Assembly: GCF_041146795.1 (NCBI RefSeq)
Contig: NC_135187.1
Location: 6,807,556 to 6,871,555, forward strand
Length of the DNA: 64,000 bases
Source of the DNA: Maylandia zebra
Taxonomy: Eukaryota > Chordata > Actinopteri > Cichliformes > Cichlidae
Direction of reading: 5' to 3'
Positions 37,131 through 40,860 of the stretch are shown one piece after another. The position numbers and the translations under genes are program-made. Numbering within the stretch: the first letter of the stretch is position 1; each line of letters begins with the position of its first letter. The notes under the pieces are model-generated. The model saw nothing but the letters and a program-made list of their open reading frames with translations, was not told the origin of the DNA and searched no databases.

Positions 37131-37189
37131 GTGAGAGATGGCACTGTGGGAGGAAGAAGGCGGTACAGTGCTGTCCACGGTGTTTTGCT

Positions 37190-37350
37190 GGGAAACCGTA
37201 GACTCTGGCACTTATGTGAATGTTATTTTGGCGCATATCACCAACCTAAACACTGCTGCAGACAGTTTACATCCCGTCATGGCAGCAGTATGTTCTTTTT
37301 TCAACAGACTAATGCTCCCTGCCACAATCCAGAGTTAAGACAATTTCAGG
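37190..37350 (+). pseudogene. Tc1/mariner-like transposase remnant
   Basis: Across two frames the plus strand reads TYVNVILAHITNLNTAADSL and then FFQQTNAPCHN. The second part matches the QQDN-P-H box of Tc1-like transposases, which carries the second catalytic aspartate. Here that Asp is replaced by Thr, and a frameshift separates the two parts. A similar nucleotide stretch recurs at about 38266-38370. It is dead and contributes nothing to the tRNA genes, but it marks the repeat unit. Confidence 0.6.
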
Positions 37351-37640
37351 GTGTTGGCGCCAAAGCATCAGTACACTAGAAAAACAATGAAGGCACACAA
37401 TGCAACCAATAAGACCTAAAGAACCTACACAAAACACTTTCAGATGACTCGTGGAGTTGACTCTTTGACAGGTCAGGGTTGTTTGACATCAACTCCAAGT
37501 CTGTGTAATGCTTTTTATGCACGTAAAGCGGGTTCCAGTGATTCATCTGGGACACTTTTAGAGTTCAGTATCTCACTAAAAGACATATCATCTCCTGCAG
37601 AACCCAGAATGAAGTCACATGAAATAAGCAAACCACTTTC

Positions 37641-37711
37641 TGCACTGCCTGGGAATTGAACCCAGGTCACAAGAATGGGAATCTTGTATGATGCCACTAC
37701 ACCAGCAGTGC
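37641..37711 (-). tRNA. tRNA-Gly (CCC), copy A, apparently intact
   Basis: Read on the minus strand, 71 nt including discriminator A. The acceptor stem GCACTGC pairs fully with GCAGTGC. The D arm region is TGGTGTAGTGGCATCA (A box TGGTGTAGTGG). The anticodon stem CAAGA/TCTTG encloses loop TTCCCAT, giving anticodon CCC (decodes GGG). The T arm is CTGGG, TTCAATT, CCCAG, with a B box GGTTCAATTCC close to consensus. Compared with the canonical animal tRNA-Gly(CCC) I recall, the differences are mostly transitions, and the acceptor changes are paired and preserve base pairing. No run of four T lies directly downstream; the nearest is roughly 60 bases on, which is unusual for Pol III termination and lowers confidence that it is transcribed. 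Confidence 0.85.
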
Positions 37712-38147
37712 TGCATGACTGGCTGTTGTGATGAATCATTAACCATTTAGCATACGTGACATTTTATTTTTCCAGGTCCACAGCAGGTGCATATAATTTC
37801 GTGAAAGTGGTAACCACTACTAAAAGGGAGCTCAAACACCACTAAAGTCAACATATATAGTAAAGTCTTGGATGGCATGTGCTTGAACTATCTAAATAAG
37901 GGGTGCTATAGGAGACGTCATCAAATCCAGAACCAAAGAAATCTAAAAGAGACTTGTACTTAGACACTGAACAGTGACTTTCTGAGGACGTTGGGCATTT
38001 GGCATGCATCAGATATGGTCTATGGATCAGTGGCTCACTCCCATGAATCACTTTTTTATTATACACATACAGAGCAGCTGATCTGTTTGAAGGATAGTGG
38101 TGGACTCTTAAACACCACATGAGGAAATCAGGAACTAAAGGCATCAC

Positions 38148-38220
38148 TTACTGCCTGCCTTGGAATTGAGCACAGGTCATTCGAATGGGACTTTTGTGTC
38201 TATATTGGACCATAGACCAG
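38148..38220 (-). pseudogene. tRNA-Gly-like copy B, degenerate
   Basis: The plus strand reads CTGCCTGCCTTGGAATTGAG and CACAGGTCATTCGAATGGGA, aligning with the 3' half of copy A. After the anticodon loop the D arm and 5' acceptor are scrambled. It is not a functional tRNA. Confidence 0.65.
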
Positions 38221-38265
38221 GTAACAAGATAGTCTGGTAAAGACAGTATGTTGCAGTATTATGCA

Positions 38266-38370
38266 GCATAAAGCTCTCTGCAATTTTTTGCTTGGAAACC
38301 TTGGCTCCAAACATTCATGTGAATGTTACTTTGACATGTGGCACCCAGCTAAATGCTTCTGCAGCGCACC
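38266..38370 (+). repeat. Second Tc1-like scrap within the array
   Basis: TTGCTTGGAAACCTTGGCTC and ATGTGAATGTTACTTTGACA correspond to TTGCTGGGAAACCGTAGACT and ATGTGAATGTTATTTTGGCG at about 37184-37230. The offset of about 1.1 kb matches the offset between tRNA copies A and C, so the scrap was duplicated with the array. Confidence 0.55.
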
Positions 38371-38723
38371 CCAAGCAAATGCATTTCTAGCCTTCTTTTA
38401 GAAAGGGACTACACCTTTTAGAGGAGACCAACATTTCCCAGGTGATTGTAGCCTCCAAATTCTCTGTTCTCAGTCTGGCCAAGTGATTGTAGTATGTGCT
38501 GGAAAAAAAAGTCTGACTGATGGAGGCCATTTTGCAACCTAAAGGTCTTAAGACATCTGCTGCCAAGGCCGTGTTGCCTTGTACCACCTTTGTGAGGATG
38601 TGAGGCATAAAGTCTAGAGAATAGTGTCTCAGCCACATTAATAACCTTTGACTTTACAGATGCATAGCAGCTGTGTATGCTGAACTCTTAAATGCATTTG
38701 AAGAAGCGTAAAATGTAACTTAA

Positions 38724-38794
38724 AGCACTGCCAGGGAATTAAACCCAGGTCACAGGAATGGGAGTCTTGTATGATATCATTACACTAGCAATGC
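38724..38794 (-). pseudogene. tRNA-Gly (CCC) copy C, nearly full length, damaged
   Basis: On the minus strand it has acceptor GCATTGC/GCAGTGC (one G-T pair), anticodon loop CTCCCAT (CCC), an anticodon stem CAAGA/TCCTG with one A-C mismatch, and a T stem CTGGG/CCCTG with one mismatch. The discriminator is T rather than A. The B box reads GGTTTAATTCC. Stem mismatches in two arms argue for a pseudogene, though transcription is possible. Confidence 0.7.
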
Positions 38795-38852
38795 AGACTG
38801 ACGCACAAGTATATGCAGTAGTAGTAGACAAAGGTCTAAAGATTTCTGAAGT

Positions 38853-38910
38853 TTTGGGAATAAAACCCAGGTCACAATAATGGGATTTTTGGATGCATTC
38901 ACTAACAGTC
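38853..38910 (-). pseudogene. tRNA-Gly-like copy D, fragment
   Basis: The plus strand GGGAATAAAACCCAGGTCAC and AATGGGATTTTTGGATGCA keeps the T arm and anticodon region only. It lies just 128 bp from copy C, a spacing not seen elsewhere in the array, so a deletion or a small local duplication happened here. Confidence 0.6.
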
Positions 38911-38935
38911 TTAAGCTTGAAAGAAGGAAATTGGA

Positions 38936-38985
38936 CTTCTTTGAGTTTTTTAAGACGTTTCACCTCTTATCCAAGATACTCCTTT
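38936..38985 (-). mobile_element. Retroelement tail with stem-loop (copy 4), in array
   Basis: The minus strand has ATCTTGGATAAGAGGT followed by GAAACGTCTTAAAAAACTC. The hairpin is weaker (TCTT/AAGA), but the loop and the GAAACGTC box are kept, as in 32914-32938. Confidence 0.5.
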
Positions 38986-39034
38986 AGTTTTTTGTTTTTT
39001 TTAAACTATAAGAACTCCCATAATCCCAGAAGGT

Positions 39035-39135
39035 TGATTCTGATCATCTGGATGTTGCATTTTCAGGGACAAACGTTTCAACACTCATCCAAGTGTCTCA
39101 TTCAGTCTCAGCTGCCTGCATGTATCCCAGGTTAT
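39035..39135 (-). mobile_element. Retroelement tail with stem-loop (copy 3), in array
   Basis: The minus strand reads GCAGGCAGCTGAGACTGAAT, then the hairpin ACACT, TGGATG, AGTGT (plus coordinates 39081-39096), then TTGAAACGTTTGTCC and CATCCAGATGATCAG. It is collinear with 14790-14940. It inserted between tRNA copies D and E. Confidence 0.6.
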
Positions 39136-39483
39136 AAATAGTATGCTTGCATAATGAGTTAAAATGGCAACACTGACTAATAATGGGTCGTGAGGTCAAT
39201 TTCATGATCATTAATATGCAAACTGTCATGACCATTGATCAATGGCCATGAGTACCATTCACAGAGAGTTGCAGAATGGCTACCGTCAAAGAGGTGTAAG
39301 ATGGTCTCTTTAAAGTTGAAGACTGATCAATGGTGAACTTTCTTTAACTTTAGAGACAGCTAATTTAGCAACCCAAATGTCCTGTTGCTATGTGATGCAT
39401 TTGGCATGGCCCACTGAGCAGTCTTAGAACTCATAGTTTACTTTATGATGTAAGTCTGAAGTAGAGGACACATAAGATTTATG

Positions 39484-39554
39484 TGCACTGCCTGGGAATT
39501 GAACCCAGGTCACAAGAATGGGAGTCTTGCATGATACCACTACACTAGCAGTGC
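39484..39554 (-). tRNA. tRNA-Gly (CCC), copy E, apparently intact
   Basis: Minus strand, 71 nt with discriminator A. The acceptor GCACTGC/GCAGTGC is fully paired, the A box is TAGTGTAGTGG, the anticodon loop is CTCCCAT (anticodon CCC), and the anticodon stem CAAGA/TCTTG is perfect. The T arm CTGGG, TTCAATT, CCCAG has B box GGTTCAATTCC. It differs from copy A at only a few places (TAG for TGG at the start of the A box, GTA for GCA in the D loop, TGC for TAC before the anticodon stem, and C for T at the start of the anticodon loop). The D-loop GTA and TGC forms are those of the canonical gene, so E is in part closer to the ancestor. No T4 terminator follows immediately. Confidence 0.85.
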
Positions 39555-39780
39555 TGTTGCAAGCTGGCCACATATGTAGTTGCATTTTTCTGTTACCTAA
39601 AGGTCTTAAAGCATCTTTTGCTCAGGCCTTGGTAACTAGTGCCACAGCAGAGTCTTGTCTTTTTCCTTTTATAAATCTACTTACAGTTTTTATTTCTGTG
39701 ACATTATCTCGCTAGATGATCAGTTAGGATAGAATTATTAAAGACACGAGCTGCAGAGAAGGGCTAGAGGTGAGATATAG

Positions 39781-39825
39781 CACACTGCCTGAGAATCTTA
39801 TATGATACCACTACACTAACAGTGC
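39781..39825 (-). pseudogene. tRNA-Gly-like copy F, internal deletion
   Basis: The plus strand runs CACACTGCCTGAGAATCTTA then TATGATACCACTACACTAAC then AGTGC. Both acceptor halves and the D arm remain, but most of the T arm and part of the anticodon arm are deleted. It cannot fold as a tRNA. Confidence 0.7.
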
Positions 39826-40161
39826 ACCAATCAGCTAAAGGTCTCAGCATACAATGGTCACTGCACACGGCTGGTAACATCATCATATACCCACATCCAC
39901 TTGTATTTGCTATTACGGCTCAAGTAGCCACTGCAGTATTCTCCTGAACAATTGAAGCAGCCAGTCAGACAAAAACTCTACATCAGCACCGATGCAGGAG
40001 GAGGAGAGCGAAAACGTGAAGCAAAGTAACCTGGTCATGTACTGTACTTGGACATCAACACGAGACTTTCTGAGGATGTGACGCACTTGACATGATTTAG
40101 TCTTAGAAATCATAGTTTACTTCAGGATGTTAGTCTAAATTAGAGGTGGCATAACAGTCTT

Positions 40162-40232
40162 TGCACTGCCTGGAAATTAAACACAGGTCACAAGAACGGA
40201 AAGCTTGTATGATATCACTACACTAACAGTGC
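40162..40232 (-). pseudogene. tRNA-Gly-like copy G, full length, anticodon changed
   Basis: Minus strand, 71 nt with discriminator A. The acceptor is GCACTGT/GCAGTGC (one T-G pair). The anticodon loop TTTCCGT gives TCC instead of CCC, with one mismatch in the anticodon stem (CAAGC/TCTTG). The T stem CTGTG/TCCAG (loop TTTAATT) is damaged and the B box reads TGTTTAATTTC. It is probably a pseudogene. The CCC to TCC change stays within glycine. Confidence 0.65.
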
Positions 40233-40643
40233 GGTCCTGGGTTAGCCACATATCTTGCCTTTCGGGTTATGTGCTGTAGAAACAAGTCAGCGAGGTGGAG
40301 GGCAATTCTGTCAAATGAAGGTCCTAAATGATCTTTTCCCAAGGCCTTGGCAACTAGTGCCAAAGAAGAGTGTTACTGGTCTATTTCCTTTTATAAATCT
40401 GCAGTATTCTCCTGAACAGCTGGAGCAGCCAGTCAGACAAAAGCTCTACATCAGCACTAATGCAGGAGGAGGAGAGTGAAAATGTGAATCAAAGAAACCT
40501 GGTCACTCTATCAGACATGGATGGTACTTAGACAATAACATGAGATTTTCTGAGGATGTGATGCATTTTGCATGACATTGCATGCATTCAGTCTTAGAAA
40601 TCATAGTTTACTTTATACTGTTTGTCTAAAGTAGTAGGACACA

Positions 40644-40675
40644 TAAACTGCATGATACCACTACACCAGCAGTGC
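40644..40675 (-). pseudogene. tRNA-Gly-like copy H, 5' half only
   Basis: The plus strand AACTGCATGATACCACTACA then CCAGCAGTGC retains the 5' acceptor and D arm. The anticodon and T arms are absent. It is the last recognisable copy of the array. Confidence 0.65.
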
Positions 40676-40860
40676 TGTTAGAGGCTGGCTGAACATGCAG
40701 TTCCATTTTGGGTTATGTGCCGTAGCAACAAGTCAGCGAGGTGGAGGGCAATTCTGTCACCTAAAGGTCTTAAAGGATCTTTTGCTAAGGCTTTGGTAAC
40801 TAATACCACAAAAGAGTCTAAATCTACTTGCACATGCAGCATTTTTTAATGACATTATCT

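Follow-up and report, generated by a model that had tools for sequence, protein, structure and literature searches.

A 64,000-nucleotide stretch of the Maylandia zebra genome (NC_135187.1, here C21, positions 6807556-6871555; the window) carries a run of sequences related to transfer RNA (tRNA) for glycine with a CCC anticodon, all on the minus strand, and the question it raises is how the run arose and whether any of its members is still a working gene. The reading we prefer, at a probability of roughly 0.85, is that tRNA-Gly(CCC) genes of the Gly-CCC-2 isodecoder type form an old tandem array, arranged head to tail. ARAGORN predicts two tRNA genes in the whole window, both Gly(CCC) and both on the minus strand: copy A (37641-37711) and copy E (39484-39554). 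With the Rfam tRNA model these score 59.8 and 63.9 bits, E being the highest of the copies scored, and two further full-length copies, C (38724-38794, 45.7 bits) and G (40162-40232, 31.6 bits), also lie above the gathering score. A covariance model (R1) trained on A, C, E, G and two paralogs recovers seven minus-strand copies (E, A, C, G, D, F and H, with E-values from 2.9e-26 to 0.0012), the matches to its four array training copies arising by construction; its only two other matches are the reverse strands of A and E (E-values 0.26 and 0.6). Copy B was missed by R1 and recovered by BLAST against A (E-value 3.5e-7), bringing the total to eight, and adjacent copies are spaced 55-577 nt apart. 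All eight minus-strand copies and the duplicated flanks reported in the initial annotation were therefore found by ARAGORN, Rfam, R1 and BLAST between them.

The material around the tRNA copies carries the case for tandem descent. The repeated unit consists of an upstream module U, the tRNA and downstream modules D1, D2 and D3, the step between units G and H measures about 443-491 bases, and every module lies on the minus strand like the tRNA copies. In unit H, U occupies 40752-40819 (repeat family D3, a family label distinct from module D3; 66-88% identity to the reference copy) and recurs at 40306-40373, 39588-39655 and 38530-38597; D1 occupies 40590-40645 (repeat family D9, 73-84%) and recurs at 40099-40154 and 39420-39475; D2 occupies 40516-40575 (repeat families D8 and D10) and recurs at 40036-40095 and 37948-38007, with a 20-base piece at 38589-38608; and D3 occupies 40399-40505 (repeat family D6, 91%), with a second copy at 39931-40037, and a part of it recurs on other chromosomes. 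BLAST aligns unit G with unit H at 70% over 467 columns (E-value 5e-68), and the best local alignments of their flanks stand at z = 59 upstream and z = 116 downstream; flank alignments of E with G and of E with H give z = 18-43 (all against 100 single-base shuffles each). A head-to-tail unit that takes in the flanks is thus strongly supported in E, G and H, less so in B and C, and did not emerge in A and D. As the flanking blocks recur in the fixed order U-tRNA-D1-D2-D3, units E, G and H at least come from segment duplication and not from retroposition of a tRNA or of a short interspersed element (SINE). A weak match at 37183-37261 on the minus strand (71% over 79 columns to 38286-38364, E-value 6e-4) may be the flank of a further, erased unit past copy A. 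The locus had been described as a birth-and-death snapshot of a tRNA cluster; the part that holds is local duplication in tandem, with most copies decaying afterwards, whereas birth and death as a process extrapolates from one genome.

The eight copies differ widely in condition. A and E each have a complete cloverleaf with a CCC anticodon and discriminator A, and in a pair table each of the 17 pairs in the acceptor, anticodon and T stems is Watson-Crick, with a D stem like that of the human gene; neither contains a CpG. Box motifs are present in both (A, TGGTGTAGTGG; E, TAGTGTAGTGG; both, GGTTCAATTCC), as assessed against the human gene and not by promoter scoring, with the usual A- and B-box motifs as the yardstick. 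The proposal that these two copies keep their stems, anticodon and both boxes is accordingly upheld by ARAGORN, Rfam and the pair table, and the accompanying view that the remaining copies are damaged also stands. C and G are full length and broken: in both, the T-loop reads TTTAATT, with T replacing the B-box C (C56 in standard tRNA numbering); C has mismatches in its T and anticodon stems, a T discriminator and box changes, and G has mismatched anticodon and T stems. The other four are incomplete. B (38145-38197) is a 3' part with the anticodon loop, T arm and a degraded acceptor (81.5% identical to A over 54 columns by BLAST); D (38850-38906) comprises the anticodon and T arms (R1 32.4 bits, E-value 9.7e-7; BLAST core 38855-38895); H (40649-40675) is a 5' part alone (BLAST to A, 93% over 29 columns, 40649-40677; R1 21.3 bits for 40614-40675); and F (39781-39825, R1 30.3 bits) has a 26-base internal deletion that fits a single event between two ATTCCCA repeats inside the tRNA, the predicted 45-nt product differing from F at six positions. 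The anticodon loop of copy G carries TCC, which is again a glycine anticodon, within an otherwise broken tRNA.

The acceptor stem says less about descent than had been proposed. The initial annotation stated that all copies share the acceptor GCACTGC/GCAGTGC and used this to argue for one founder over repeated capture; the first claim is too strong, as the full acceptor is present in two of the eight copies (A and E), the others having GCATTGC/GCAGTGC (C), GCACTGT/GCAGTGC (G), GCACTGT/GCAGTGT (F), the 5' arm alone (H), or little or none of it (B and D). GCACTGC also heads two degraded copies away from the array, at C21:32956168 and C7:20070055, and the acceptor was for this reason discarded as a lineage marker. 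A single local founder is therefore unproven by the acceptor and descent rests on the shared flanks: tandem duplication survives from the earlier argument, best for E, G and H, and the acceptor does not. GCACTGC may instead be the usual Gly(CCC) form of the lineage, and the acceptor, previously called unusual, is better described as CpG-free. In the open-access literature, no published occurrence was found of any of three 18-letter versions of the variant's 5' end, two of which spell one sequence as DNA and as RNA.

The absence of CpG was examined by comparison with human tRNA-Gly-CCC-2-1, which has eight CpGs in the sequence given in PMC12217144. A and E are each identical to it at 61 of 71 positions, and the 10 differences in each consist of one transition per CpG plus two private sites; the private bases are C at position 19 and A at 25 in A, and A at 9 and C at 31 in E. 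All eight human CpGs are gone from A, C, E and G, replaced by TpG or CpA in A and E, and the replacement base is the same in these four copies at seven of the eight; at CpG 61, C has T in place of the A of the other three, and C and G carry a second change at CpG 54. The inferred founder has one additional difference from the human sequence, at position 9, which is ambiguous. Two loci elsewhere in the genome, L003 (C1:29755151) and L005 (C1:20841759), each retain five of the eight CpGs, and because every one of the eight survives in one or both of them, the ancestor probably contained these CpGs. In A and E, three stem pairs are altered on both sides and compensated. The acceptor stem is paired throughout A, C, E, G, L003 and L005 with three pairs changed on both sides, a count attained by 12 of 500 shuffles. 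In a neutral simulation of CpG decay that took the human sequence as its start and ran until the eight CpGs of that sequence had been lost (2000 runs per setting), all 17 pairs remained Watson-Crick in 0.35, 0.7, 2.15 and 5.3% of runs at CpG ratios of 5, 10, 20 and 40, respectively. The simulation favours a founder under structural selection, to a degree set by the choice of ancestor and rates. These patterns suggest that CpG mutation and structure-preserving selection could jointly rewrite a tRNA stem by turning paired CpGs into matching TpG and CpA; a narrow, all-terms query for CpG loss with compensation in tRNA genes found no open-access paper.

The number of Gly(CCC) genes was gauged by searching the genome (962,127,851 bases in 63 contigs), for which all match counts are lower bounds. 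A query of the Gly-CCC-1 type gave at least 40 scored matches out of 64 candidates, and the 20 inspected were all Gly(GCC). A 31-base anticodon-arm pattern of the same type, allowing up to two mismatches, gave 64 matches (62 on C22 and two on C7), all of which read GCC and none CCC. With L005 as the query, at least five genome matches were obtained. ARAGORN calls Gly(CCC) for A, E, L003, L005 and L007 (C21:32956168). L003 and L005 pass the Rfam gathering score, at 48.9 and 54.2 bits, respectively, both below A and E; L007, which has an extra base near its acceptor, and L008 fail. As none of the 64 pattern matches reads CCC, the main Gly(CCC) genes may be A and E together with L003, L005 and perhaps L007, within the two-mismatch reach of the pattern and the type queried. 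A bolder version of this idea, which we consider unlikely, is that a CpG-free, fully paired and functional Gly(CCC) gene evolved in this lineage, three of its stem pairs rewritten via mirrored CpG sites, and that the array is now its main surviving source, holding two intact genes among six relics of a near-extinct isoacceptor family beside some sixty copies of Gly(GCC). If Gly(CCC) does depend on the array, losing A and E would show how far the animal needs the isoacceptor.

The sequence of events that would account for the array begins with a founder that was a working gene and lost all eight CpGs before amplification while selection kept its stems paired; duplication by unequal exchange or replication slippage would then have multiplied it. 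With about even odds, A and E would still decode GGG, RNA polymerase III (Pol III) transcribing them from the A and B boxes inside each gene, and C and G, with the changed B-box C and mismatched stems, would be relics along with the four fragments.

Not everything sits comfortably with this account, and the points on the other side concern both the extent of the array and the condition of A and E. In BLAST, A shares only a 13-base downstream extension with G beyond the tRNA, no shared flank was found for copy D, and the flanks of B and C match weakly (U and D2 matches), which makes it less certain than for E, G and H that these four copies belong to one duplication series. Several Gly(CCC) sequences might instead have been captured independently by one neighbourhood: in their far flanks A and D do not align and B and C align weakly (D lying outside the set tested with shuffles), and GCACTGC copies exist elsewhere too. 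We regard this as improbable, given the single strand of all copies, the ordered flanks shared by E, G and H, and the weaker U and D2 matches of B and C. Still less credence attaches to a tRNA-derived SINE family with local copies, even though tRNA heads, degraded copies and a module D3 partly dispersed on other chromosomes are all features it would predict. A 161-base query around A gives at least nine genome matches, four of them in the array, where the initial annotation had associated a SINE with hundreds of dispersed copies, and the five off-array matches extend at most one base past the tRNA body. The flanking blocks were examined as dispersed repeats with a 441-base unit query, which gives at least 16 matches, six in the array; the other 10 cover the D3 end alone (query 339-441), so that only this end is dispersed, and in the six of these loci inspected neither ARAGORN nor Rfam at the gathering score finds a tRNA. 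Moreover, E, G and H have their upstream flank in common, which retroposition would not copy. The genome counts show no such abundance of scattered copies sharing a 3' part, and the SINE explanation was rejected. As for module D3 itself (39931-40037 and 40399-40505), it contains a short dispersed repeat with at least 10 off-array matches on nine contigs, at 74-84% identity to the query, and the six inspected loci (L014 and L016-L020) match one another over up to 150 columns.

A more serious alternative takes all eight copies as silent relics; the intact look of A and E would then be due to chance or gene conversion, and L005, L003 or a Gly(UCC) tRNA would read GGG codons. We place this alternative a little short of an even chance. 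The first run of four T (T4) lies at +60 in A and +320 in E (+11 in C and +148 in G), so neither A nor E has the close T-run expected of a Pol III terminator, and L005 has TTTT immediately 3' of its tRNA. Local CpG observed/expected is 0.24 around A and 0.16 around E, compared with 0.37 for the window and 0.54 for L005, and such low values would fit a silent locus. However, A and E outscore L003 and L005 in Rfam, and the T stem contains a mismatch in L003 and a wobble in L005. A and E also differ at only four of 71 sites, an identity above most flank comparisons: eight alignments of flanks between the A-D half and the E-H half diverge by 9-29%, and five of the eight exceed 4/71 at Fisher p < 0.05, the extreme being U of B against U of H (28/96, p = 1e-4). 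The other three comparisons give p > 0.1 and lend no support to slow change in A and E, whose likeness could also stem from gene conversion. Changes since the inferred founder are uneven (three in A, one in E, nine each in C and G; p = 0.026), in a contrast of four sequences that was drawn post hoc and in which C and G share some changes. Nor do the T4 and CpG markers clearly separate dead from live genes, as judged on 30 control tRNAs of unconfirmed activity (the top-scoring of 62 listed matches, from 63 scored among 60,875 candidates). A T4 occurs within 20 nt in seven of the 30 and within 40 nt in 21; when 13 loci with identical Thr tRNAs are counted once, these become 7/18 and 9/18. Among the controls CpG observed/expected falls as low as 0.13, and in all 20 inspected copies of a young Gly(GCC) array the first T4 is at +345. 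Because many control tRNAs of the same genome are likewise without a near T4, the terminator is not decisive, and its absence was set aside as proof of death. Just past E, where a terminator would be expected, lies a hairpin, CACATAA-ATC-TTATGTG (39469-39485, including the last two bases of E), which may be a chance occurrence.

Set beside known systems, the tandem array is most readily compared at the level of the single gene with human tRNA-Gly-CCC-2-1. The human gene (PMC12217144) matches A and E in length, anticodon, and stem and box layout; it differs in its eight CpGs, which A and E lack, in the three compensated pairs and in the two private changes of each copy. At the level of the cluster, teleost tRNA loci are clustered in zebrafish (65%) and stickleback (87%) and mostly isolated in pufferfishes and medaka, a cluster being defined by neighbours under 1000 nt, according to PMC2888827. 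The clusters described there resemble the array in being same-strand runs of one tRNA family with interspersed pseudogenes; the array is small and mostly decayed, and with full-length copies only, the distance from A to C (1,012 nt) is slightly beyond the limit of that source (PMC2888827). The Arabidopsis SYY tRNA-Ser/Tyr cluster likewise combines tandemly duplicated tRNA units with tRNA-like pseudogenes and is silent in most tissues, with root-tip expression and a deletion phenotype demonstrated (PMC12308677). That cluster has expression and phenotype evidence, whereas the Gly(CCC) array is known from its sequence.

Two further arrays in the same genome are also built of head-to-tail tRNA units, and they are larger and far more alike internally than the Gly(CCC) array. 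On C13 (2224152-2256022, L027-L038), 12 tRNA-Thr(TGT) copies lie on one strand at a spacing of 2.7 or 3.0 kb, and four of the 11 units compared with the reference L028 (central 2 kb, ungapped) show 99.8-99.9% similarity to it, the rest 80-94%. On C22 (28743706-28781782 and 29825304-29933917, L056-L075 and L077-L083), a Gly(GCC) array accounts for 62 pattern matches in units mostly of 2,124 bases; in the two units examined with ARAGORN (L056 and L075), which are 99.7% alike, tRNA-Met and tRNA-Glu are present as well. Since their units are so much more alike, both arrays are younger than the Gly(CCC) array, and as the genome holds these much younger tRNA arrays, tandem tRNA amplification is habitual in it. 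The Gly(CCC) array thus seems to be a case of ordinary tRNA multiplication and decay, its notable twist being the founder's apparent loss of every CpG with the cloverleaf still paired, and it offers, with the young arrays, a compact view of young and old, decayed arrays within a single genome.

A viral pattern scan and a prokaryote pattern scan returned no matches. Ten open reading frames (ORFs), chosen from 76 of at least 90 amino acids, were searched against Pfam and gave two listings, of which one, in a repeat-type ORF, is above the cut-off. The ORF at 15148-15561 matches ALKBH8_N (3.5e-7), a domain common in the tail of fish long interspersed element (LINE) reverse transcriptases.

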